From Micromonospora endolithica (lineage in GTDB: Bacteria; Actinomycetota; Actinomycetes; Mycobacteriales; Micromonosporaceae): a DNA stretch of 64,000 bases. Each line of letters opens with the position of its first letter. Positions within the stretch are counted from its first letter, which is position 1. Below the pieces are notes generated by a model. The model did no database searches and had not been told where the DNA came from. It saw only the letters and a list, made by a program, of their open reading frames with translations. The translations under genes were made by a program, and so were the position numbers. This document shows, piece after piece, positions 10,348 to 41,036 of the stretch. The stretch lies in the NCBI RefSeq assembly GCF_003626595.1, contig NZ_RBAK01000011.1, positions 62,001-126,000 of the forward strand. The letters run 5' to 3'.

Positions 10348-11346
10348 TCAGCCGCGCCGGCGGGCGCGGGCGGCCCAGATGGCGTACGCCGGGTCCCGGT
10401 CGAGGTTGTGCCGGTCCCGGTCGTAGCGGCGGGTGGTGCGCGGGTCGGCGTGGCCCATGGCGTCCTGTACGTCCTCCAGGGGGACCCCCTCGGCGCGGGC
10501 GGTGGTGGCGAACGCGTGCCGCAGCGAGTGCGGCGACAGGCTCGCCCAGGCGGGGATCCCGGCGGCCCGGGCCAGCCGGCGCACCAGCCGGAACACCGAG
10601 TGCCGGTCCAACCGGGCGCCGCTGGCGGTGACCAGCAGTGGGCCGGTCAGCTGGTGCACCGCCACGCCCCGCGCCGCCGCCCGCTGCGCCAGGTACGCGT
10701 CCAGCGCGTACGCCGTGCCGGGGGTCAGCGCCCGTCGGCGGGCCTTGCCGCCCTTGCCGACGAACCGGATGCTGCGGTGGCCGCGTTCGGTGCCCAGGTC
10801 GGCCAGGTCGAGGGAGACCAGTTCCCCGACCCGTAGGCCCAGGTCGGCCAGCAGGGCGAGGGCGGCCCGGTTGCGGACCGCGGTCGAGCCGGTGTCGGCC
10901 TCGGCGGCGGCGAGCAGCGCGTCCACCTCGTCCGGGGTCAGGCCGACCGTCGCCGAGTGGTCCCGGTCGATGCGCGGCCGGTCCGCGCCGGCCACCGGAT
11001 TGGCATCGACGGCGTGCAGTTTGACCAGGAAGTCGTACCAGCTGGACAGGGCGGACAGCCTGCGGGCGACGGTGGCCGGTGTCAACGGTCGGCCGCTGCG
11101 CGCCGCGAGGGTCGACTCCAGTGTGCGGGCGTACTCGTTGACGTGCAGGAAGTTCGCCCACAGGGGGTCGAGGTCGCGGGCCGCGCACCAGGTGAGCCAC
11201 CCGGCGATGTCCCGCCGGTAGGCGTCGCGGGTGTGTGCCGACAGCCGCCGGTTGCGCAGCCACGCCTCGGTGAAGTCGCTCGGGGCGCCGGGCAGGGCCG
11301 GGCGGGCCGAGGATCGGGAACGCACCGGAGCGTCCGAGAAGAACAT
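10348..11346 (-). CDS. Tyrosine recombinase, XerC/XerD-like
   Basis: A 332-residue site-specific recombinase with an N-terminal SAM-like core-binding domain (about 22-115) and a C-terminal catalytic domain. Catalytic residues can be placed: R172 in DLGLRVGEL, H273 and R276 in SPHSLRHAF, H299 in MGHADPRTT and Y308. ATG 11346 is the first Met. It is a solitary gene without adjacent phage or plasmid genes and no att-like direct repeats were found nearby, so a chromosomal Xer-type or domesticated role is as likely as mobility. It is divergent from rox across a 277-bp region holding a minus-strand terminator-like hairpin, which could control it. Confidence 0.9.
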   Translation of the reverse strand: MFFSDAPVRSRSSARPALPGAPSDFTEAWLRNRRLSAHTRDAYRRDIAGWLTWCAARDLDPLWANFLHVNEYARTLESTLAARSGRPLTPATVARRLSALSSWYDFLVKLHAVDANPVAGADRPRIDRDHSATVGLTPDEVDALLAAAEADTGSTAVRNRAALALLADLGLRVGELVSLDLADLGTERGHRSIRFVGKGGKARRRALTPGTAYALDAYLAQRAAARGVAVHQLTGPLLVTASGARLDRHSVFRLVRRLARAAGIPAWASLSPHSLRHAFATTARAEGVPLEDVQDAMGHADPRTTRRYDRDRHNLDRDPAYAIWAARARRRG

Positions 11347-26536: not shown

Positions 26537-26758
26537 GTGGAGGGGTTCGAAGCCCGGGCAGCGGCTCTGCCAGCCGACTACCAGGCGGCGTGGGAACAGA
26601 TCACGGTCCACCGGGCTTCACCGGCCGCAACCTGATGCCGATCCTCGACGCCGCCCTGGGGCAGCTCGAAGAAGCATCGGCGGACGGGCAGAGCATCCAG
26701 CAGGTGCTCGGCGACGACATCCCCGGCTTCTGCACGGCGTTGGCTGGTGGGGCCGCCC
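26537..26758 (+). pseudogene. Frameshifted and truncated DUF1048 gene
   Basis: Frame 1 from GTG 26537 reads VEGFEARAAALPADYQAAWEQI, then loses homology; from about 26605 a second frame resumes with GFTGRNLMPILDAALGQLEE, ADGQSIQQVLGDDIPGFC and TALAGGAARS. Together these form the centre and end of a DUF1048 protein (usually encoded with PadR regulators and ABC exporters). A one-base-class frameshift lies between 26602 and 26614, and the C-terminus is cut by the terminal repeat of the transposon at 26759. The upstream part is replaced by the AT-rich islet. Confidence 0.7.
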
Positions 26759-26787
26759 GTAGTTTCCAGACCAAAAACAACGGTAAG
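26759..26787 (+). repeat. Left 29-bp terminal inverted repeat
   Basis: Begins GTAGTTTCCAGACC and ends AACAACGGTAAG. The reverse complement occurs at 30855-30883 with 28 of 29 bases identical. The inner end GGTAAG resembles the TAAG inner terminus of Tn3-family repeats, although 29 bp is shorter than the usual 38. Confidence 0.85.
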
Positions 26788-26888: not shown

Positions 26889-27836
26889 TCAGCGCCGGTG
26901 TCGGCGGTGGTGCTGATCGTTCTCGGCGGTGATGCGGGCGGAGGTCTCCTCGCCGAGGCGGACGTAGATGCCGAGGGTGGCCAGGTGCCGGTGGCGGGAC
27001 TTGGCCTGCAGCTCGGCGGCGCTGCGGCCCTTGGCGGCCAGATGGGTCAACCCGGAGTGACGCAGCTGGTGGAGGGTGTACCCGGCGCCGTGCGGATCGT
27101 GGAGCTGGGATGCCTGCTTGAACAGGTACTCGGCGCGCGGGTAGGAAAGCCGGCTGCGGCCGGTGTCCGGGCAGATGTCGCCCAGTGCCGGCGCGCGGCG
27201 CCCCGCTGCTGCGGCCCGCCGGTCGGTGAGGAACACCGGCCCGATGGCGCGGCCGGCCAGTAGCCGGGGCAGCAGGCGTGCGGTCGGGGTTTCCCAGTGC
27301 ACGTAGGCGCGGTCGCCGCCTTTCTCGACGACCAGGGCGCGGCGGAACTCCATGTCGAGGTCGGGCACGTTCAGCCTGAGGATCTCCTCGGTGCGGGCGC
27401 AGGTCTCGTAGAGCATTCGCCACAGCACCCGCTCGCGCAGTGAGTTGCGGTCGTCGGTGAACAGCCGGTCGAGCCGGGCGCGGGGGATGGCCTTGTCCCG
27501 TGTTCGGGTGACCTTGCGGCGTTCCAGGCGCCGGCCGGGGTCGGTGGTCAGCCAGTCCTGGCGGCGGCAGTAGGCGGTGAACGAGGTCAGCGCGGACAGG
27601 TGCTTGTTCCAGGTGTTCGCGGCCCGCTCGTCCCAGCGGGCCATCGTCTGCTCGTAGATCTCCGGGGTGAGCGCGGCGACCGGTAGCTGATCCCCGGCGG
27701 TCTCGCGCAGCCGATGCAGAGTCTCGGTGTAGGTGGCGCGGGTGGCAGGGTCGTCGCGGAACCGGTCGAGGAACGCGTCGACGGCGACCACGAGCGCCAC
27801 CGGGCGCCGGGCGGTCGGCAGCGGGATCACGGACAC
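26889..27836 (-). CDS. Tyrosine recombinase of the transposon (TnpI-like)
   Basis: A 315-residue phage-integrase-family protein. The N-terminal SAM-like domain spans about 15-105 (VDAFLDRFRDDPATRATYTETL and NTWNKHLSALTSFTAYC). The catalytic domain has Arg in YETCARTEEILRL, the HxLRH motif in YTLHQLRHSGLTHLA, and RHLATLGIYVRLGEE with the Tyr nucleophile. GTG 27836 is chosen for GGAGGAG 8 bp upstream. By position inside an element with Tn3-type remains, it may act as the cointegrate resolvase, with the intergenic 27837-27950 as its recombination site (inference). Confidence 0.85.
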   Translation of the reverse strand: MSVIPLPTARRPVALVVAVDAFLDRFRDDPATRATYTETLHRLRETAGDQLPVAALTPEIYEQTMARWDERAANTWNKHLSALTSFTAYCRRQDWLTTDPGRRLERRKVTRTRDKAIPRARLDRLFTDDRNSLRERVLWRMLYETCARTEEILRLNVPDLDMEFRRALVVEKGGDRAYVHWETPTARLLPRLLAGRAIGPVFLTDRRAAAAGRRAPALGDICPDTGRSRLSYPRAEYLFKQASQLHDPHGAGYTLHQLRHSGLTHLAAKGRSAAELQAKSRHRHLATLGIYVRLGEETSARITAENDQHHRRHRR

Positions 27837-27926
27837 CTCGGCGGCTCCTCCGGTGATGCCCGGAGTTCGTCGAGGAGGATTTCGATGCCGATACCGCGAA
27901 GCCTTTCGGGGAAATACCACTGTCGG

Positions 27927-27952
27927 CTTGTACAAGTGAACCATGGTAAGCT
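27927..27952. promoter_or_regulatory. Operator/promoter of the ArsR gene
   Basis: Perfect palindromes CTTGTACAAG (27927-27936) and ACCATGGT (27940-27947) adjoin a -10-like TAAGCT (27947-27952). Transcription from it would begin at or next to GTG 27959, so the mRNA may be leaderless. The palindromes are probable autorepression sites. Confidence 0.5.
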
Positions 27953-27958
27953 GTGGTC

Positions 27959-28327
27959 GTGAACGCGTTCGACGTCCTCGGCGACCCGGTGCGTCGGCGG
28001 ATCTTGGAGCTGCTCGCCGACGGTGAGCAGACCGCTGGCGCAATCACAGATGTGATCCGGGTCGAGTTCGCACTGTCGCAGCAGGCTGTCTCCCAGCATC
28101 TGCGGGTTCTCCGTGAGCACGGGTTCGCGTCGGTCCGGGCTGAGGGGGCTCGTCGGTTCTACGCCGTCGAGGCCGGGCCGTTGAGCGAGGTTGACGCGTG
28201 GCTGGACCGGTTCCGCAGGCTCTGGGACCAGCGACTAGACGCACTGGAGACCGAGCTCGCCCGCGGCAGACGTACTACCCGGCAATCCGCCAACGACGAG
28301 CCTGGCGGGCCCAACGAAGAAGCGTAG
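27959..28327 (+). CDS. ArsR-family winged-helix regulator
   Basis: A 122-residue repressor. The start region MNAFDVLGDPVRRRILELLA, the recognition segment ALSQQAVSQHLRVLREHGF (helix-turn-helix, about 38-58) and the wing SVRAEGARRFYAVE are typical of ArsR proteins paired with SRPBCC enzymes. It lacks the Cys pairs of metal sensors. GTG 27959 has no RBS and may be leaderless; GTG 27953 is the alternative. The next gene (SRPBCC) is 34 bp downstream and probably under its control. Confidence 0.87.
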   Translation: MNAFDVLGDPVRRRILELLADGEQTAGAITDVIRVEFALSQQAVSQHLRVLREHGFASVRAEGARRFYAVEAGPLSEVDAWLDRFRRLWDQRLDALETELARGRRTTRQSANDEPGGPNEEA

Positions 28328-28361
28328 GCACGAGGGGTTCCCTACCGAACGGAGCATGACG

Positions 28362-29009
28362 ATGAAGGATGTTCTCGACGAGCTGTCCGCGGCCCGCCGG
28401 AAGATGGGCACGGCGACTTTGCCCGCCGGTGAGGCCTACACGATGGAGCTGAGGCGTCGCTACAACGCGCACCTCGATGACGTGTGGGACGCCATCACCA
28501 ACACCGAGCGACTGAGTCGCTGGATGAAGCCGGTCACCGGCGACCTTCGCCTCGGCGGGACATTCGAGCTAGACGGCGGCGAGCATGGCGAGATCCTCCG
28601 GTGCGAGCCGCCGCGCTTGCTGCGGGTGTCCTGGATGTTCGGGCCCGGCGCGGACGAGTGGCCCGGCACAAGCGAGGTCGAGGTGCGACTGTCTCCCGGA
28701 TCAGCCGGAGACACCGAGTTCGAACTGGTCCACGCTGCCGCCGTCGGAGAACCTATGTTCCCCACCTACGGTCCCGGTGCCGGCGGTGTCGGCTGGGACC
28801 TGCATCTGCTAACCCTCGCCGGCTTCCTGGGCGACGGCGAGGTCCTTGACCACGAGGAGTTCAGGGCATCGCCCGCCGGCCGCGAGTTCAGCCGGCGTAG
28901 CGCCGCCGCCTGGGGCGAGGCCCACCTGGCCGGCGGCGGCGAACCGAGCCAGGTCGCGGCCGCGGTCGAGGCCACCACCGCGTTCTACCAGCCCGCCGGG
29001 GACGCGTGA
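28362..29009 (+). CDS. SRPBCC (AHSA1-like) domain protein
   Basis: A 215-residue protein. The START/AHSA1-like fold is recognised from MELRRRYNAHLDDVWDAITN then LSRWMKPVTGDLRLGGTFELD, the PPRLLRVSWMFG strand and the long C-terminal helix with GWDLHLLTLAGFL. ATG 28362 is preferred because GGAGC lies 7 bp upstream; ATG 28356 is too close to it. Such proteins bind hydrophobic ligands; with its ArsR partner it is a widespread but functionally obscure pair in actinobacteria. It was carried here as transposon cargo. Confidence 0.85.
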   Translation: MKDVLDELSAARRKMGTATLPAGEAYTMELRRRYNAHLDDVWDAITNTERLSRWMKPVTGDLRLGGTFELDGGEHGEILRCEPPRLLRVSWMFGPGADEWPGTSEVEVRLSPGSAGDTEFELVHAAAVGEPMFPTYGPGAGGVGWDLHLLTLAGFLGDGEVLDHEEFRASPAGREFSRRSAAAWGEAHLAGGGEPSQVAAAVEATTAFYQPAGDA

Positions 29010-29102: not shown

Positions 29103-29708
29103 CTATGACGCAGCGGCTGCTGCGGCGATGGCCGCACACTTGCGGCCCGGAAACTGCTGCCTAAGACGCTGAAGTTCGGTGAAACCGGCTTCTCTCAGGC
29201 GGGCGGAGAACTCGTCCACAGGCCAGCGGTATGCGGTGTGGACCTTGTGATCGAACGCGGCCACCCCGTCGTCGCTGTCGAAGAAGCCGATTACTAGCCT
29301 CCCGGAAGGGGTCAGCATCCGGCGGAACCGGGCTAGCACACCGTCCAGCTCCGGTGGCGGTATGTGAATGGTTGAATACCAGGAGAGGATGCCGGCCACC
29401 GAATGGGCGGGAAGGTCCAGGTCGGTCATCTCTCCGAGCTGGAACTCTGGCCCGGGAAAGTTGGTCTGGGCGTAGTCGATGAACTCGGGGACCAAGTCGA
29501 CGCCGGTCACGTCGGCGCCGAGCGAATGCAGGTAGGCGCTCCAATGGCCGGGGCCGCAACCGAGATCGAGCACCGTGCCGTCCAGGCCGACGAGGTGACC
29601 TCGGACGAGGGCCGCGTCGTCCGCGTGGGCCTGCCAGTCACCATCGAACAAGGCGATGTACTGCTCCGACATGTACGAGTAGGCGTCACGGACCGGTTGG
29701 CTTCTCAC
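29103..29708 (-). CDS. Class I SAM-dependent methyltransferase
   Basis: A 201-residue Rossmann-fold methyltransferase. Motif I is VLDLGCGPGHWSAYL (about 46-60), motif II ends in VTGVDLVPEFIDYA, and the post-motif segment DLDLPAHSVAGILSWYSTIH is followed by LTPSGRLVIGFFD. The acceptor specificity cannot be assigned (small-molecule type). GTG 29708 starts MRSQPVRDAYSYMSEQYIALF, the usual N-terminus of this subgroup. It is convergent with the SRPBCC gene and part of the transposon cargo. Confidence 0.85.
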   Translation of the reverse strand: MRSQPVRDAYSYMSEQYIALFDGDWQAHADDAALVRGHLVGLDGTVLDLGCGPGHWSAYLHSLGADVTGVDLVPEFIDYAQTNFPGPEFQLGEMTDLDLPAHSVAGILSWYSTIHIPPPELDGVLARFRRMLTPSGRLVIGFFDSDDGVAAFDHKVHTAYRWPVDEFSARLREAGFTELQRLRQQFPGRKCAAIAAAAAAS

Positions 29709-29951: not shown

Positions 29952-30845
29952 TTAGCGTCGTGCCGAGGTGGCCTCGATCAGCCGTAGCGGCCGGTAGCCG
30001 TCGGTGTCGAGCTGAGCGAGCTCGCCGTCGATGTCGACCGAGTGGGTGCCGTAGAAGTGCACGTTCTCATGGTGGGTCGGCCAGATGTGCGCCAGGACCT
30101 CGTCGTCGACGTCGCGGCCGCCTCTGCGCAGGGCGGCCACGCCCAACCCGTGGTATTCCGTGGACCAGCAGACGATCGCATTGGTGGCCACGGTCAGGCA
30201 CCACATCTGCTCGCTCTGCTGCTCGTGGTGCCGCCGTCGCAACGCGCCCTCGCCGGCGTACGCGAGGCAGCGGCGCAGGGCGTGCAGGTTCTCGCCCTTG
30301 TTCAGGCGCCGCCGGTAGGTCTCGTCGGCCAGGTATCGGGTGGCGTAGACCGTGCGGCGCAGCGTCCCGTACTCCTTGATCGCGCTGGTCAGCGCGTTCT
30401 GCTGCCGCTTCGAGGAGCACAACTTCCCGACCACCAGCGCCGCCGTGGCGTGCCCGCCCTGCACCGACGCGGCGACCCGCAGCAGGTCGTCCCACATGTC
30501 CGTGATCAGGTCCAGGTTCAGCCGCCGGGTCAGCAGCGCCCCGGCGCGCGGGTAGCGGTCCATAAAGTCAGCGCGGGGCCCGGTCCGGTACAGGGTGATC
30601 TTCCCGAGGTCGCGGATGCGCGGCGAGAGCTGTTTGCCGACCAGGTCGAACAGGGCGAAGTTCGCCAGGGTTGCGCCGTGGGTGTCGGTGGCGTGCTCGA
30701 ACACGGGCAGGTCGGTCTCATTGCCGAGCAGTCCGTCGAGCACGTAGTGCGACTCCGGCGCGGTCGCGACGATGACCTTAGTGTCGAAGGTCGAGTGCTG
30801 GTCCGAGACGTGGGTGTACGTGGGCTCAGGACAGAGCTTGATCAA
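29952..30845 (-). pseudogene. tnpA: Tn3-family transposase, C-terminal fragment
   Basis: The 297-residue frame starts with unrelated residues (MIKLCPEP) and joins the family at TYTHVSDQHSTFDTKVIVAT. It keeps the second catalytic Asp (HATDTHGAT) and the late Glu region (LNKGENLHALRRCLAYAGEG), and ends HENVHFYGTHSVDIDG. Intact TnpA is about 970-1000 residues; roughly 650 N-terminal residues, including the first catalytic Asp (SDGxRF region) and the repeat-binding domain, are absent. The break lies within about 10-40 bp of the right inverted repeat, so deletion or rearrangement at the element end removed them. It cannot catalyse transposition. Confidence 0.85.
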
Positions 30846-30854
30846 CCCTCAGTT

Positions 30855-30883
30855 CTTACCGTTGTTTTTGGTCTGGAAGCTAC
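30855..30883 (-). repeat. Right 29-bp terminal inverted repeat
   Basis: Begins CTTACCGTTG and ends GGTCTGGAAGCTAC. It matches the reverse complement of 26759-26787 at 28 of 29 positions; the single difference is at 30879. Confidence 0.85.
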
Positions 30884-30893
30884 AACCGCCGCG

Positions 30894-30913
30894 TATTCGA
30901 TCTGATGCGAATA
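30894..30913. repeat. Imperfect copy of the GCATC-N-GATGC palindrome
   Basis: TATTCGATCTGATGCGAATA is a palindrome except for one missing C in the left arm. Its core matches the repeats at 31062-31098. It lies just outside the transposon end and upstream of the recombinase trio. Confidence 0.55.
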
Positions 30914-31050
30914 CAAGACAGTCTGCGCGCGGCGTGCGGCCGAGGTCGGCGCTGCTGGTTACGCGAGTAGCCGTTTCGACGACTGTAGACCCTCCTGGAG
31001 GTAGCTCCCTGCCGCGAGGGTTCCGAATCCGACCATCCTGACCTGCATGT

Positions 31051-31098
31051 TTGACAAACGGCTCGCATCAGATGCGAAAATCTCGCATCTGATGCGAG
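31051..31098 (+). promoter_or_regulatory. TTGACA promoter covered by a perfect 16-bp inverted repeat
   Basis: TTGACA (31051-31056) is a perfect -35 box. The probable -10 region falls inside a perfect inverted repeat: CTCGCATCAGATGCGA (31062-31077), 5 bases, then its exact complement at 31083-31098. Each arm is itself nearly palindromic (CGCATC-N-GATGCG). The repeat ends 19 bp before the recombinase GTG. It could be an operator for the HTH protein, a recombinase core site, or both. Confidence 0.7.
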
Positions 31099-31117
31099 TG
31101 GTGGGAGGTTACTGTCG

Positions 31118-32239
31118 GTGGACGTGGAGCGCGCCGCGCCGGGCTCGGCGGCCCTGCAACTGGCTGACGGTGTCCGGCTGCTGCGACCGGACGAGCAGGT
31201 CTTCACCGCGATGCTCGACGGCTGGCGTAACCAGCAACTCGCGCGGAATCTGTCCTTCGGCACTGTGGAGAGCCGGCAGCGGTCGGTGCGAGCGTTCGCT
31301 GAGCATGCGCAGGCGCTGCCGTGGCGGTGGACTCCGCAGCTGGTTGACGAGTGGTGCACCGATCTGCGGGCCGTGCGTCGGGTGCGGCGCTCGACGCTGC
31401 GCGGCTACCAGGAGGCGGTCCGGCTGTTCTGCGCGTATCTGACCGACCCGGCCTACGGCTGGGTCGGCGAGTGCGAGAAGCGCTTCGGTACGCACCCGGT
31501 GCAGGTGGTCCACGAGTGGAACGCCGCGGTTCACGTTGCCGCGGCCGAGGGTGACCCGGCCAAGCGCGCGTTCACGCTCGACGAGATGCAGGCTCTGCTG
31601 GACTACGCCGACGAGCAGGTCACCCGGATCCGGGCGGCCGGGCGCAAGGGTTGGCTGCCGGCGTTCCGCGACGCGACCCTGTTTAAGGTCGCCTACGGGT
31701 ACGGGCTGCGGCGCAACGAGACCCGGATGCTCGACGTCGCGGACTTCGGCCGCAACCCGCACGCCGCTGAGTTCGGCGAGTACGGCGTGCTCTACGTGCG
31801 CCACGGCAAGGCGATGAAAGGCTCGCCGCCGAAACGGCGCAGCGTGCTGACCGTCTGGGCGTGGGTGCCGGAAATCCTCGCCGAGTGGATCGAGGAGATC
31901 CGGCCCCTGCTGGCTATCGAAGGCAACCCGGCGCTGTGGCCCTCGGAACGGGCACCTCGTGTCGGGCTGGCCCAGCTCAACGCGCGGCTGTCGGCCTACC
32001 GCGACGCCCTCGGCCTGGACGCTGGGCTGGACTTCCACTCCCTGCGCCGCTCCTACGTCACCCATCTGATCGAGGCCGGCTGGGATCCGTTGTTCGTGCA
32101 GCAGCAGGTCGGCCACGAACACGCTTCCACCACGGCGATCTACACCTGCGTGTCGTCGGACTTTCGCACCCGCACGCTGCGGCAGGCTCTCGACGCGACC
32201 ATGAAGGCGGCACTACGGCCGACACGGAGGGCCCGATGA
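31118..32239 (+). CDS. Tyrosine recombinase (first gene of recombinase trio)
   Basis: A 373-residue site-specific recombinase with the full catalytic set: R198 in GYGLRRNET, K231 in VRHGKAMKG, H307 and R310 in DFHSLRRSY, H333 in VGHEHAST and Y342 in IYTCV. The core-binding domain spans about 35-120. GTG 31118 has GGGAGG 9 bp upstream. The stop overlaps the next ATG (ATGA), so expression is coupled to the small HTH protein and the zinc-ribbon protein. It would cut and join DNA at repeat sites; the 16-bp inverted repeat just upstream is the best candidate site. Confidence 0.92.
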   Translation: MDVERAAPGSAALQLADGVRLLRPDEQVFTAMLDGWRNQQLARNLSFGTVESRQRSVRAFAEHAQALPWRWTPQLVDEWCTDLRAVRRVRRSTLRGYQEAVRLFCAYLTDPAYGWVGECEKRFGTHPVQVVHEWNAAVHVAAAEGDPAKRAFTLDEMQALLDYADEQVTRIRAAGRKGWLPAFRDATLFKVAYGYGLRRNETRMLDVADFGRNPHAAEFGEYGVLYVRHGKAMKGSPPKRRSVLTVWAWVPEILAEWIEEIRPLLAIEGNPALWPSERAPRVGLAQLNARLSAYRDALGLDAGLDFHSLRRSYVTHLIEAGWDPLFVQQQVGHEHASTTAIYTCVSSDFRTRTLRQALDATMKAALRPTRRAR

Positions 32240-32571
32240 GCATGCAACGCCAGGTCAGCTACCGGTGGCGACTGCGGGAGGTGATGGCCGCCCGGGGCGT
32301 GTTCACCGCCACCGAGCTCGTCCCGCTGCTGCACGAACGCGGCATCGACCTGTCCGCCTCCCAGGTCCACCGCCTGGTGACCGGCACCCCGGAGCGGCTG
32401 TCGCTGCCCGTCCTCGCGGCGCTATGCGACATCCTGGAGGCCACCCCCGCCGACCTGGTCGCCACGACGGCGGCCAACGTCGCACCGCGCAAGGCCGTCG
32501 CCGGCGACGCCCCAGCGCCGGTGGACCTCGCTACTGTCCGACCCAAGCGCGCCCGCGTGCGCCCCGACTAA
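32236..32571 (+). CDS. Small helix-turn-helix (XRE-like) protein
   Basis: A 111-residue protein. The N-terminal ~75 residues fold as an XRE-type HTH: VSYRWRLREVMAARGVFTAT, then ELVPLLHERGIDLSASQVHRL and the following SLPVLAALCDILEATPADLV. The tail is basic and disordered (RPKRARVRPD). It overlaps the first recombinase gene by 4 bp and its TAA shares a base with the next ATG (TAATG). In this genetic setting it probably represses the trio promoter through the inverted repeat, or acts as a recombination directionality factor. Which of the two is not decided by sequence. Confidence 0.85.
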   Translation: MSMQRQVSYRWRLREVMAARGVFTATELVPLLHERGIDLSASQVHRLVTGTPERLSLPVLAALCDILEATPADLVATTAANVAPRKAVAGDAPAPVDLATVRPKRARVRPD

Positions 32572-34046
32572 TGAGCCGGACCGACACCGCTGATCAGTAC
32601 GAACGCGACTGTGTCCGCTGCGGCCGACGCAGTTCCACCGTTCGGTGGCCTGACGGCCAGGTCTGCCGCACCTGCCAAGATCGGGCGTTGCGGACCCAGG
32701 GCCGCTGCCCCGGCTGCAGTTACGACCGGCTCCTGGCCGGACGGCGGGCCGAGGACCGGGCTCTGATCTGCACCAGCTGCGCCGGATTCTCCATCTCGTA
32801 TACCTGCGCCGAGTGCGGGCAAGAGGGCAAGCTGCACGCCGGTCGCCGCTGCACCCGCTGCACGTTCACCCGGCGGATCGCCGAACTCCTCGACGACGGC
32901 AACGGCCGCATCCGCCCTGAACTGGCGCCCCTGGCCGAGCTGCTGACCAGCATGGACAACCCGCTCACGGGGCTGGCCTGGGTCTCCTCCCGGCACGGCG
33001 TCCCCGCCCCGGCTGCGGACCTGCTGCGAGGTCTGGGCCGCGGCGACATCGAACTGAACCATGACGCGTTCCACCGCTTGCAACCATGGCGAGCTGCCGC
33101 CCACCTGCGGGAACTGCTCATGCAGTGCGGTGTCCTGCCCCCGATCGACAAGCAGATCCTGCTCTTCGAGAGATGGCTACTCGAGCACCTCGACACCATC
33201 ACCGACACCGAACAGCGCCGGCTGCTGCGCCAATACGCCACCTGGCATCAACTACCCTGGCTGCGCCGCCGCGCCGAACGCGGGCCGATGAGCCGCAGCA
33301 CCCGCGGCGAACTCGGACAGCAGATCCTGCGGGCTGGCGACTTCGTCGCCGGAGTCCAGAAGCAGGGGCTCACCCTCGCCCGACTCCGGCAGCACGACCT
33401 GGACCGCTGGATCGTCACCCATCCGCCGCGTCACCGGCAGCTCCTCAAACCGTTCCTGACCTGGGCCGCCCACGCCGGGCACATTCCACGGCTGCACACC
33501 GCCGCGCCCCGGCCCGGCCAGCAATCGCCGATCACACAGCACCGGCGCATCGGACTACTCCGCAAGCTGATCACCGACGACACCGGCGAGCTCCGCGCCC
33601 GCGTCGCTGCAATCCTGCTGCTGCTCTACGCCCAACCGCTCGGCCGCATCCTGGGCCTGACCATCGACGACATCGACACCACCGGCTCCGACGTCCTGCT
33701 CCGGTTGGGCGACCCGCCAACGCCGGTCCCCGAACCCGTCGCCGACCTGCTATTGGCGCTACGTGACCAGCGCACCAACATGCGCACCGCCACCAACCGC
33801 AACGCCCGCTGGCTGTTCCCCGGACGCCGCGCCGGTCAACCGTTGACTACCCGCACGATCGGCCCGCTCATCCGCGACCTCGGCGTCCCCACCATTCCCG
33901 GCCGCCTGGCCGCACTGCACCAACTCGTCCTCCAAGCCCCGGCACCGGTCATCGCCCAGGCCCTCGGCTTTCACTACACCACCACCCAGCGCCACCACGC
34001 CGCGGCCGGTGGAACCTGGAACCGCTACACCGGCCGAGACGGGTAA
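32571..34046 (+). CDS. Zinc-ribbon protein with degenerate tyrosine-recombinase fold (third gene of trio)
   Basis: A 491-residue protein. The first 100 residues carry six CxxC pairs (C14/17, C32/35, C46/49, C67/70, C79/82, C94/97), enough for three zinc ribbons. The rest resembles an integrase core: a SAM-like stretch around 255-310, LLLLYAQPLGRILGLTIDDI (one Arg in the usual place) and a C-terminal ALGFHYTTTQRHHA segment. The HxxR pair is replaced by LHQL, so a full R-H-R-Y set is absent. It is likely a DNA-binding partner of the first recombinase rather than a catalyst. ATG 32571 overlaps the HTH stop; the 3' end overlaps the convergent gene by 22 bp. Confidence 0.8.
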   Translation: MSRTDTADQYERDCVRCGRRSSTVRWPDGQVCRTCQDRALRTQGRCPGCSYDRLLAGRRAEDRALICTSCAGFSISYTCAECGQEGKLHAGRRCTRCTFTRRIAELLDDGNGRIRPELAPLAELLTSMDNPLTGLAWVSSRHGVPAPAADLLRGLGRGDIELNHDAFHRLQPWRAAAHLRELLMQCGVLPPIDKQILLFERWLLEHLDTITDTEQRRLLRQYATWHQLPWLRRRAERGPMSRSTRGELGQQILRAGDFVAGVQKQGLTLARLRQHDLDRWIVTHPPRHRQLLKPFLTWAAHAGHIPRLHTAAPRPGQQSPITQHRRIGLLRKLITDDTGELRARVAAILLLLYAQPLGRILGLTIDDIDTTGSDVLLRLGDPPTPVPEPVADLLLALRDQRTNMRTATNRNARWLFPGRRAGQPLTTRTIGPLIRDLGVPTIPGRLAALHQLVLQAPAPVIAQALGFHYTTTQRHHAAAGGTWNRYTGRDG

Positions 34047-34696
34047 CCGATCTCCGCGAGATCCTCCCCGAGATCGGCCACCACAAGATCGGGATTCAAG
34101 CGGCGAACCAGGTCGTCGGTCAGCGGGTGCAGAGCGAAGATCTCGCCGACCGCTTCCACATCGACGGCCGTCTCGTAGTAGTCCTCTGCGAAGCGCTGGT
34201 ACGCCACCGGGCTGCCTTCGACGAGAACCTGGAACAGCCTGTCAGCCCCATCGGGATCATCACCCGCGGGAAAGACCAGCTCCCCGGCATGCCACCGGTC
34301 ATCGCCCTGCTGCCGCCACAGGCACACCGTCGCTTCCAGCGTGCCGTCGAAGCTGAACGCCGGCTCAGCGACACAACCCGAGAAGACGTCCGGCACCGCG
34401 TCGACCAGCCCCGGCCACAGCTCATCGTCGTTGTTGGCAGGACTCATCGGCGACTCGTGGTCGAAGCCCCGGATGAACGCGCCAGCCGACGAGAACACGA
34501 TCGACCACGCGTCACCCGACCCGTTTCGCATCGACGCCATCTGCTCGCCCGGCGCCCACCGGGAATCGAACGAGTAGTACCGCGACTCCCACTCCGGACT
34601 CATGATCGCGTCCGACATCGCCAACGCTTGACACCGCTGGCGAAGCACCGCGATGTCTGGCAGGGCACTCGCTACGTCATGAACCGTCACCGGCAC
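34025..34696 (-). CDS. Conserved hypothetical protein of actinomycetes
   Basis: A 223-residue soluble acidic protein. The sequence MPVTVHDVASALPDIAVLRQ, then WESRYYSFDSRWAPGEQMAS and FAEDYYETAVDVEAVGEIFA recalls a conserved family of unknown function in Streptomyces and relatives. No catalytic motif is seen. ATG 34696 gives the expected start. The last codons overlap the end of the trio gene, as if the element had inserted right at the 3' end of this gene and supplied a new stop (RPV-stop). Confidence 0.75.
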   Translation of the reverse strand: MPVTVHDVASALPDIAVLRQRCQALAMSDAIMSPEWESRYYSFDSRWAPGEQMASMRNGSGDAWSIVFSSAGAFIRGFDHESPMSPANNDDELWPGLVDAVPDVFSGCVAEPAFSFDGTLEATVCLWRQQGDDRWHAGELVFPAGDDPDGADRLFQVLVEGSPVAYQRFAEDYYETAVDVEAVGEIFALHPLTDDLVRRLNPDLVVADLGEDLAEIGYPSRPV

Positions 34697-34844
34697 ATCT
34701 AACCTCGACGAGCCTCTCGCACTGCTCCGACCCCAGCAATCTCACCAAGAGTCACTCAGTCACGACCACCAGCCGGAAATACCAGACACTTTGATTACAC
34801 GACCCTGCCAGTCGGGCGGGCCGGTGGCGAGGCAGCCCGGACCC

Positions 34845-39419: not shown

Positions 39420-41036
39420 TCACCGACCGCCGGTTAGTTGATCTTCGGTTTCCCGGGTGGTCGGTGTGGGTTCGGCCAGGTAACGGTGCAGTGAGGTTTC
39501 GCGAATGCCGGTCTTGGTGGCGATGGTGCCCAGGCTGGCGCCCTGCGCCCTGAGCAGCCGGGCGTACTCGATCGGGTAGGCGAGCGCAGCCAGTTCGGCA
39601 GGCGGCGGTGCCGGGTAGCTCTCTCCGTTCAGGGTCGCCCCGTCGAACTCGGCGTCACCGTTGAACCTCGCCCCGTCGAACCTGATGCCGTTGTGGTACA
39701 GCAGGCTGAACGTCACGCCGTGGTGGAAGTCCACCCCGCCGAAATCGGCGTCACCGTGGAACGTGGCCTGGTCGAACCGGGTGCCGTGGTGGAAGTCCCC
39801 ACCGGCGAACACGGCCCGGTGGTGGAAGGTGGCCCCGCTGAACCGGGCGCCGTTGAAGCAGGTCAGCTCGATGAACCAGGCTTCACCGCCGAACACCGCG
39901 CCGTCGAAGTCGGTGACGCCGTGGAAGGTCGTGTAGTCGAACACGGCGCTGTCGTGGAAGGTCGCTCCGCGGAAACTGGCGTCCCCCAGGGACATGACGT
40001 CACCGCTGATCGTCCCCCCGACGAACGCGGCGAAGGTGAAGTTCGCCGCACCGTGGAACGTCGCCTCCTGGAAACGGGCGCCACCGTGGAAGGTCGCCGA
40101 GGTGAAGTCGGCGTTGCGCAGGTGGCAGCCGGTGAAGTCGACGTTGACGAGGCTCGCCTCGGCAAGGTCTAGGACGACTGCCGGTCCCCAGTACGAGGGG
40201 TCGGGCGCGGCGTTCTGGGTGGTGGGGCGCAGATGGCGGGCGAGGATGCGTTGCGCGGCGAGGCGGACCTGGCGTTCTTCCCGCGGGTCCACGGCTGTCG
40301 GGTCGGGGCCGGTGGTGGCCGGGGCGGGGTCGGCCGGGGTGGACCTGGTCCCGGGCGGGGTGTAGGGCATCCGCAGGTAGGCGCAGATCACCTCGACGAT
40401 GCTCGGCCGGTGGATCGGGTTGCCCTGGGCGAGGCGTTCCAGGGCGTACAGGCCGGCGAGGCGGACCGGGGCCTTGTCCGAGCCGAGCTGGTCGGCGGCC
40501 TGGAGGTACAGCTCGGTGACGCGCTTCTCCCCCGCGTCGTACTCGGTGGCCTGCTGGGTGCGCTCGGCCAACTGTTGCCGACGGAACGCCAGCAACAGCG
40601 CGAACGCGCCGGCCGCCGCCGCGCCGATGGTCAGGCCGGTCCGGATGGACTCCACCCGCAGCTGGGCCCGCTGGAGCCCGTCGCCGGACGTGGGCACGGA
40701 ACGTTGCAGCCAGGCCACGGCGGCCCAGGTGACCACCGCCACCACGGCCACCCCGGCCGGGATCACCCACGACGGTAGGGGCCGCACCTGCCGATCCGGT
40801 GGCGTCGGCGCGGCGGACGCCGGATGGTCCGGAGTAGCCCGACGCCGCAGCAGCAGCCCCGTGGCCAGCGCCGCCAGGCTCACCGCCACCAGTGTCAGCA
40901 CCGGCCCCGAGGAGGCCAGGGCCGTCCACCATGGTCGGGGAACCAGCGTCAACGCCACCACCACCAGGGCCAACCCGCCGGTAGCGGTCAGCGCGTCACT
41001 CCACCGTCTCGTCACACTGCGGAATCCTTCCATCAC
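39420..41036 (-). CDS. Pentapeptide-repeat membrane protein
   Basis: A 538-residue protein. Two adjacent helices (about 14-60) and two more (about 93-115 and 137-155) anchor it. A cytoplasmic helical segment with YLQAADQLGSDKAPVRLAGLYALERLA follows, then a right-handed pentapeptide beta-helix from about 275 to 470 with repeats of the A(D/N)FxxATFHG type. The C-terminal ~55 residues (YARLLRAQGASLGTIATKTG) look like a resolvase-type helix-turn-helix, an unusual ending. Its start lies inside the 3' end of the GH42 gene (41-bp overlap, same strand). Function unknown; the DNA-mimicry known for some pentapeptide proteins is not established here. Confidence 0.83.
   Translation of the reverse strand: MMEGFRSVTRRWSDALTATGGLALVVVALTLVPRPWWTALASSGPVLTLVAVSLAALATGLLLRRRATPDHPASAAPTPPDRQVRPLPSWVIPAGVAVVAVVTWAAVAWLQRSVPTSGDGLQRAQLRVESIRTGLTIGAAAAGAFALLLAFRRQQLAERTQQATEYDAGEKRVTELYLQAADQLGSDKAPVRLAGLYALERLAQGNPIHRPSIVEVICAYLRMPYTPPGTRSTPADPAPATTGPDPTAVDPREERQVRLAAQRILARHLRPTTQNAAPDPSYWGPAVVLDLAEASLVNVDFTGCHLRNADFTSATFHGGARFQEATFHGAANFTFAAFVGGTISGDVMSLGDASFRGATFHDSAVFDYTTFHGVTDFDGAVFGGEAWFIELTCFNGARFSGATFHHRAVFAGGDFHHGTRFDQATFHGDADFGGVDFHHGVTFSLLYHNGIRFDGARFNGDAEFDGATLNGESYPAPPPAELAALAYPIEYARLLRAQGASLGTIATKTGIRETSLHRYLAEPTPTTRETEDQLTGGR

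Follow-up and report, generated by a model that had tools for sequence, protein, structure and literature searches.

A three-gene tyrosine-recombinase element of Actinobacteria located in the terminal inverted repeat of a Tn3-family transposon relic

We analyzed a three-gene recombinase system in a 64,000-nucleotide stretch of the Micromonospora endolithica genome (contig NZ_RBAK01000011.1, positions 62,001 to 126,000; this whole stretch is referred to as the window, and coordinates are those of the window). The trio encodes a tyrosine recombinase, a small helix-turn-helix (HTH) protein, and a cysteine-rich protein with a degenerate recombinase domain, and it was found to belong to a larger element, 30884-34813, which lies within a terminal inverted repeat (TIR) of a Tn3-family transposon relic. 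We consider it very likely that the trio is the mobility module of an actinobacterial site-specific element that uses Tn3-family TIRs as attachment sites. Comparison of copies shows precise ends, a target, cargo, and mobility between genomes, all as read from DNA sequence.

Insertion of the element at a Tn3 terminal inverted repeat

The features of the host transposon relic and of the two element ends are as follows.

26746-26750, no strand: left copy, GGTGG, of the target-site duplication of the host Tn3-family transposon, identical to 34823-34827 (assumes that the left TIR starts at 26751)
26751-26787, no strand: unbroken left TIR of the host Tn3 relic, with an outer tip similar to what follows the trio element on its right
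29952-30823, minus: C-terminal fragment of tnpA, the Tn3 transposase gene (DDE_Tnp_Tn3, 2.7e-76)
30855-30883, no strand: inner 29 bp of the right Tn3 TIR, CTTACCGTTGTTTTTGGTCTGGAAGCTAC, the half of the target left of the element
30884-30923, plus: left end of the element, with a palindrome at 30892-30914; position fixed by comparison of copies L068 and L069
34777-34813, plus: right end of the element (AAATACCAGACACTTTGATTACACGACCCTGCCAGTC), from end alignment
34814-34822, no strand: outer 9-bp tip of the split Tn3 TIR, GGGCGGGCC
34823-34827, no strand: right copy, GGTGG, of the target-site duplication of the host transposon

The inner 29 bp and the 9-bp tip that flank the element add up to a TIR of 38 bp. 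The left TIR matches the split right TIR at 97% over 29 nt and has a tip one base shorter; a nine-base tip would move its start to 26750 and leave only GGTG common to the two flanks. Subject to this one-base assumption on the TIR start, the host relic has the transposase, the 38-bp TIRs, and the 5-bp duplication of a Tn3-family transposon. The trio element has neither a Tn3 transposase nor TIRs of its own.

A sister transposon (L157; loci and genomes are cited by our own numbers) is 98.4% identical to the relic over 2,989 bp and has both TIRs unbroken; relative to it, ~2.2 kb between the tnpA fragment and the right TIR is missing from the window. An unbroken 33-bp target of the window type (≤3 mismatches) was found in 15 of 200 genomes of the family, the window's own genome included, and the reversed control gave 0. 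The exact combination found in the window, GGAAGCTAC followed directly by GGGCGGGCC, occurs in a genome of the same genus (G003) without a gene-3 match. TIRs of the window type form inverted pairs in six genomes, three of which have a Tn3 transposase match (L153, L155, and L157) and three of which gave no match with the queries used; identical 5-bp flanks, read from the listed sequence, were seen in L152, L153, and L155. The unbroken TIRs in L157 and in the genomes of the family indicate that the element split the TIR between nucleotides 9 and 10 from the tip, without duplication of target bases.

The host relic also carries an XerC-like tyrosine recombinase gene (26889-28043, minus), an ArsR-type HTH gene (27953-28327), and two open reading frames (28356-29009 and 29103-29708; methyltransferase-like by eye), and its tnpA is cut short at 30823.

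Ends and mobility of the element

On the left the element begins with AAGCGCC, or AACCGCC in the copy in the window, and on the right it finishes with ...CCAGT(A/C); the two termini do not form an inverted repeat. Among long relatives, the closest (L031, in a genome of the same family) is 93% identical over 30860-34028. In three Streptomyces plasmid copies (L049, L050, and L052) a common left end precedes gene 1 by ~260 bp and a common right end lies some hundred base pairs past gene 3, and a scan of the genome collection gave 58 further loci. When 51 upstream regions were aligned, those of the present lineage had a common left end with a palindrome like AATTGCATCgGATGCGAA and two promoter palindromes like TCGCATCNGATGCGA; neither was present in the sister lineages in this alignment (L033 with its double L082, L042, L043, L047, and L048). 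The right ends terminate in GAACTGGCGACAGTTGAATACGCGAGCCCACCAGT(A/C), with variation.

The ends were placed at base level by comparing L068 (Sinosporangium) with L069 (Nonomuraea), two copies in different genera that are 99.0% identical over 4,104 bp. Inside the ends, the first 100 bp are 100% and the last 100 bp 99% identical, and outside them identity falls to 55% over 29 bp on the left and 30% over 30 bp on the right. The preliminary description of this DNA had proposed a mobile multi-gene recombinase system and had suggested aligning the flanks for consistent ends; this alignment gave consistent and precise ends, and near-identical copies in two genera bear the proposal out. Its account was confined to the trio, whose genes stand as described, and it lacked the larger element, the cargo gene, the insertion target in Tn3-family TIRs, the host relic, and the occurrence across Actinobacteria.

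We rejected a direct repeat, AATACNNGACA, near both ends as the attachment core, because it is internal to both ends and the element meets native TIR sequence farther out. A class-wide search with a pattern for the Streptomyces-type right end gave hits in 2 of 197 genomes, the pattern being too strict to be useful, and of 42 stretches in viral contigs that fit a pattern none was confirmed.

The recombinase operon

The operon comprises the following features.

31051-31056, plus: TTGACA, possible -35 box of the trio operon (sequence motif)
31062-31098, plus: pair of palindromes TCGCATCNGATGCGA forming a perfect 16-bp inverted repeat across the promoter region, putative operator of the HTH protein
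31118-32239, plus: gene 1, tyrosine recombinase of 373 aa with the complete catalytic set (family-profile and residue evidence)
32236-32571, plus: gene 2, Cro/C1-type HTH protein of 111 aa
32571-34046, plus: gene 3, protein of 491 aa with a Cys-rich (zinc-ribbon-like) N-terminal part and a degenerate tyrosine-recombinase domain

Genes 1 and 2 are joined by an ATGA overlap at 32236, and genes 2 and 3 by TAATG at 32569-32573. The arms of the inverted repeat, CTCGCATCAGATGCGA at 31062-31077 and TCGCATCTGATGCGAG at 31083-31098, match exactly; each contains the palindrome TCGCATCNGATGCGA, which a search of the whole 64 kb located only at 31063 and 31083. The annotation of these genes goes no further than a site-specific integrase, a helix-turn-helix regulator, and a hypothetical protein.

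Gene 1 matched Pfam Phage_integrase (6.9e-18), and R198, K231, H307, R310, H333, and Y342, the R-K-H-R-H-Y set that defines the tyrosine recombinase superfamily, were invariant in 16 aligned sequences including that of the window. NCBIfam gave general models only, far below the cut-off; weak matches were to GMT proteins (E 0.037 and 0.052). Gene 2 matched Pfam HTH_26 (2.5e-15). The gene-3 protein has 12 Cys residues within its first 100 that were invariant in 25 aligned sequences including that of the window, and structure comparison, followed up for the chains ranked highest by Foldseek, detected the fold of the recombinase superfamily. No nucleophile Tyr was present ~9 residues past the LGH motif in the aligned members (P0002, which looks frameshifted, was not judged); Y486, conserved in at least 90%, lies about ten residues beyond the place expected for the nucleophile. 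A sequence search of the PDB with gene 3 returned mostly ribosomal proteins, with a best E of 0.25. These results agree with the preliminary description in its overlapping genes, its TTGACA box with a perfect inverted repeat (the promoter role being putative), the full catalytic set of its first protein, and its combination of a single complete enzyme with an HTH protein and a degenerate zinc-ribbon recombinase.

Occurrence of the element in other TIR types

The same trio sits in several types of TIR. A native TIR in L114, adjoining an annotated Tn3 transposase, reads CAACTAC followed directly by TCACACC, and copy L059 has CAACTAC on its left and TCACACCC on its right. A second type is represented by L065, whose joined flanks matched 98 plasmid records; 15 of the 40 matches listed spanned exactly positions 13-63 of the query across the junction at 90.2-98.0% identity. 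One of these empty sites (L127) and L126 lie beside a gene annotated as recombinase family protein, L127 just behind it. For a third type, the joined flanks of L087 matched 690 records, mostly at 60-80% identity, with 8 of the 20 matches listed being 100% identical over 50 bp across the junction; near one such empty site (L162), where no gene is listed, there are tnpA-like stretches in more than one frame.

A left-end motif filter was passed by 44 loci, and 29 of them have the TIR inner box CT[CT][AG]NCG at a distance of exactly 29 nt from the left end, on its outer side; at other offsets within 250 nt the box occurred in a mean of 0.09 and a maximum of 2 loci. When the inner flank and the right tip were joined into a 38-mer and searched among 132 loci, an unbroken match was found for 25 of 43 (L037 and L092, both without a match, being one place counted twice). 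Five shuffles of the tips as a control gave 13, 8, 11, 9, and 9 matches, high counts that arise because tips such as CCGAGGCCG are common.

Relatives of gene 3, fragments and sister lineages included, were found in 49 of 200 genomes of the family (the window's among them), in 244 plasmid records, and in 1,153 of 8,000 scored candidate proteins. Trios of this kind are frequent among Actinobacteria.

Relation to described elements

A TIR target is already known from another class of element: IS4321 and IS5075, of the IS1111 family, target Tn21-type TIRs according to the accessible part of PMC8269217, and members of that family encode a DEDD transposase (PMC11187229, in excerpt). The present element resembles them in its target and differs in carrying a tyrosine-recombinase trio, often with cargo; a Pfam scan of genes 1-3 and the cargo detected no transposase family, including the DEDD transposase. 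Among the papers listed by a literature search that covered few subscription papers, none showed a tyrosine recombinase with Tn3 TIRs as its landing site.

We considered whether the trio might belong to one of the described multi-recombinase families (GInts, RITs, and Tn554-like transposons of actinobacteria), its target having been overlooked so far. GInts have, in the portion available of PMC5385486, a ginABCD operon of three integrases plus GinD at one end, followed by cargo and a short 3' end, with imperfect direct repeats of 10-11 nt and, in pseudomonads, a target in an ABC-transporter gene. The general design is shared, with an operon of recombinases and a small DNA-binding protein at one end, cargo behind it, and a short 3' end; against the GInt pattern as described there, the element here has three genes, one complete enzyme, a TIR target, and clean junctions; no flanking direct repeats of the GInt type were seen, and the left part and the right tip together equal the unbroken TIR. 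RITs, described in the available text of PMC3414803 as three tyrosine recombinases predominant in alpha- and beta-proteobacteria, likewise consist of three adjacent overlapping genes including recombinase folds, and differ, on that description, in that gene 2 here is an HTH_26 protein of 111 aa and the usual nucleophile is missing from gene 3.

Tn554 and Tn554-like elements have two recombinase-type proteins, mostly with a third small protein, as far as the consulted parts of PMC8138268 and PMC3414803 describe them. Actinobacterial Tn554-like pairs with a recombinase of 611-828 aa also exist (PMC3414803, in part), which bears on the sister trios, whose gene 3 reaches 763 and 676 aa. By description only, the present element differs from Tn554 in that its small protein is of the Cro/C1-type HTH and placed between the other two, and in that its target is a Tn3 TIR. 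The target of Tn554, att554, lies in radC, and the element in the window occupies a Tn3 TIR instead. Membership in any of these families is improbable in our judgment, given one complete recombinase rather than three, a gene 3 devoid of the usual nucleophile, junctions at which no flanking repeats were seen, and NCBIfam matches of gene 1 that are general and far below the cut-off. The distinctness from all three families claimed earlier held for GInt and RIT by the features tested and only in part for Tn554.

Cargo and repeated right ends

Cargo is often present, as judged from the sequences of the copies, in the interval from gene 3 to the last right end. The window has a single cargo gene.

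34025-34696, minus: cargo gene for a protein of 223 aa without a Pfam family, which shares 60% identity with the L066 cargo (Kitasatospora)

A protein like this cargo was also noted by eye in L094. Ten cargo proteins were scanned, which comprised two methyltransferases, a NUDIX protein, a nucleotidyltransferase, an APH-type kinase, a pentapeptide protein, an S41 peptidase, and three proteins without a family. The cargo of L076 and L070 includes proteins with APH and nucleotidyltransferase domains.

We found that the right end lies 69 bp past the end of the gene-3 match, leaving no room for cargo, in L051 and L056 (~3.25 kb) and in L059 (~2.8 kb), the last of which is missing part of gene 1. 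In other loci a more distal right end follows after at least one gene, with or without the +69 site being retained. In the 17 loci with both, mean mismatches to the right-end consensus, itself derived from such right ends, were 5.2 for the +69 site and 2.5 for the best later site, and the +69 site was the worse of the two in 12 (Wilcoxon p 0.017). In L057, L067, L074, and L098 the cargo region contains remnants of gene 3 before a later right end, and in L057 and L067 they directly adjoin that end; L053 has a gene-3 remnant, and no later right end was found there. TIR tips follow some bypassed right ends (e.g., L119 and L067).

Repeated right-end sites with cargo between them at many loci, together with the like cargo gene in the window, L066, and, by eye, L094, would also be expected of an integron-like platform on which gene 1 moves single cargo cassettes flanked by these sites. 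The decayed first sites, the TIR tips, and the gene-3 remnants speak against it and fit better with stepwise capture of flanking DNA, and we regard the cassette platform as quite unlikely.

Tn3-family transposons can carry tyrosine recombinases, and TnpI of Tn4430 and TnpS/TnpT of Tn4651 are examples that act in cointegrate resolution. The trio has a Tn3 transposase next to it in the window and also in certain relatives, so it might be the resolution module of the Tn3 transposon itself, with the left-end palindromes as its resolution site. This is extremely improbable: the trio is placed beyond the inner TIR and interrupts the TIR at nucleotide 9/10, both TIRs of L157 are unbroken and L157 shows a separate Xer-like match, genes annotated as recombinase family protein adjoin or overlap several of the unbroken TIRs, and the same trio occurs in several TIR types.

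Proposed mechanism and its weighing

For the site-specific element that we favor, gene 1 would be the catalyst that cuts and rejoins DNA at the element ends. Excision would join the right end to the left end in a circle and restore the TIR, and the circle would then integrate into another TIR. The HTH protein may bind the two promoter palindromes and repress its own operon, and may bind the similar palindrome just inside the left end and thereby steer the reaction. The zinc-ribbon protein, with its recombinase fold and without the usual nucleophile, would be a DNA-binding partner, most likely the one that recognizes the target or the ends. Cargo could be gained by recombination at a downstream right end left by another copy, after which the bypassed right end would decay. 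As long as the element is not excised, the split TIR should leave the host transposon silenced at that end.

Several observations weigh against this reading. Joined 38-mers had no unbroken match in 18 of 43 cases, and the 25 matches include weak or spurious ones, such as that of L103 to its own left end. The exact TIR box is absent from 15 of the 44 left flanks, and the filter dropped variant left ends such as those of L035, L036, L039, L054, L070, L094, and L122. L058 and L063 look like non-TIR sites; the left flank of L058 resembles, at 98%, part of a methyltransferase gene in the cargo region of L058 itself, and insertion into the cargo of another copy is likely there. The +69 site was the better preserved one in 3 of the 17 loci and equal in 2. 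No circle junction was found in one piece: among 74 plasmid records matching a query that joins the right end to the left end, one covers at least 80% of it, in two pieces ~390 bp apart. A profile comparison of gene 3 with gene 1 gave no match (hhalign probability 0.6%), the only ties of gene 3 to recombinases being its fold and weak Pfam matches (8 of 25 members), and we infer the roles of genes 2 and 3.

In L058, two right-end stretches, identical over the ~69 bases compared, lie inverted on either side of the trio (L058:3752-8309).

With its ends and target, a trio that is common in Actinobacteria now has a defined element. If the proposed mechanism is true, the Tn3 TIR would be a harmless, mobile landing site for a tyrosine recombinase, the element would act as a brake on its host transposon, and its cargo could ride on plasmid-borne transposons. 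It would also provide a test case for the part that a catalytically dead recombinase with Cys-rich domains plays in target choice.

Sister lineages

Sister trios with a longer gene 3 were found (763 aa in L040 and 676 aa in L044), some of them with a different left end. The upstream regions of seven sister-trio loci align poorly as a set, with one motif common to three. The sister left end (≤1 mismatch) was present in five distinct loci, in four of which it lies just after codons of a tyrosine-recombinase active-site motif with the nucleophile Tyr (L033:4618, L037:5667, L048:6309, and L118 on the minus strand; L044 is the exception). The interrupted recombinase gene in L037 apparently belongs to a copy of the present, TIR-inserting lineage. 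We tentatively raise the possibility, which we hold to be rather doubtful, that these trios form a hyperparasitic class in which the dead zinc-ribbon recombinase is an interchangeable target-reading subunit, the present lineage reading Tn3 TIRs and the sister lineage with the longer gene 3 landing past the nucleophile-Tyr codon of other recombinase genes. If true, each lineage would land in a conserved, indispensable part of another mobile element.

Other sequences in the window

A pentapeptide-like protein was noted by eye at 39420-41036 (minus), with DNA repeats at 33-bp spacing; the cargo of L079 is also a pentapeptide protein. The stretch 10366-10539 is 81% identical to L031 11100-11258, which lies downstream of the element copy in L031.

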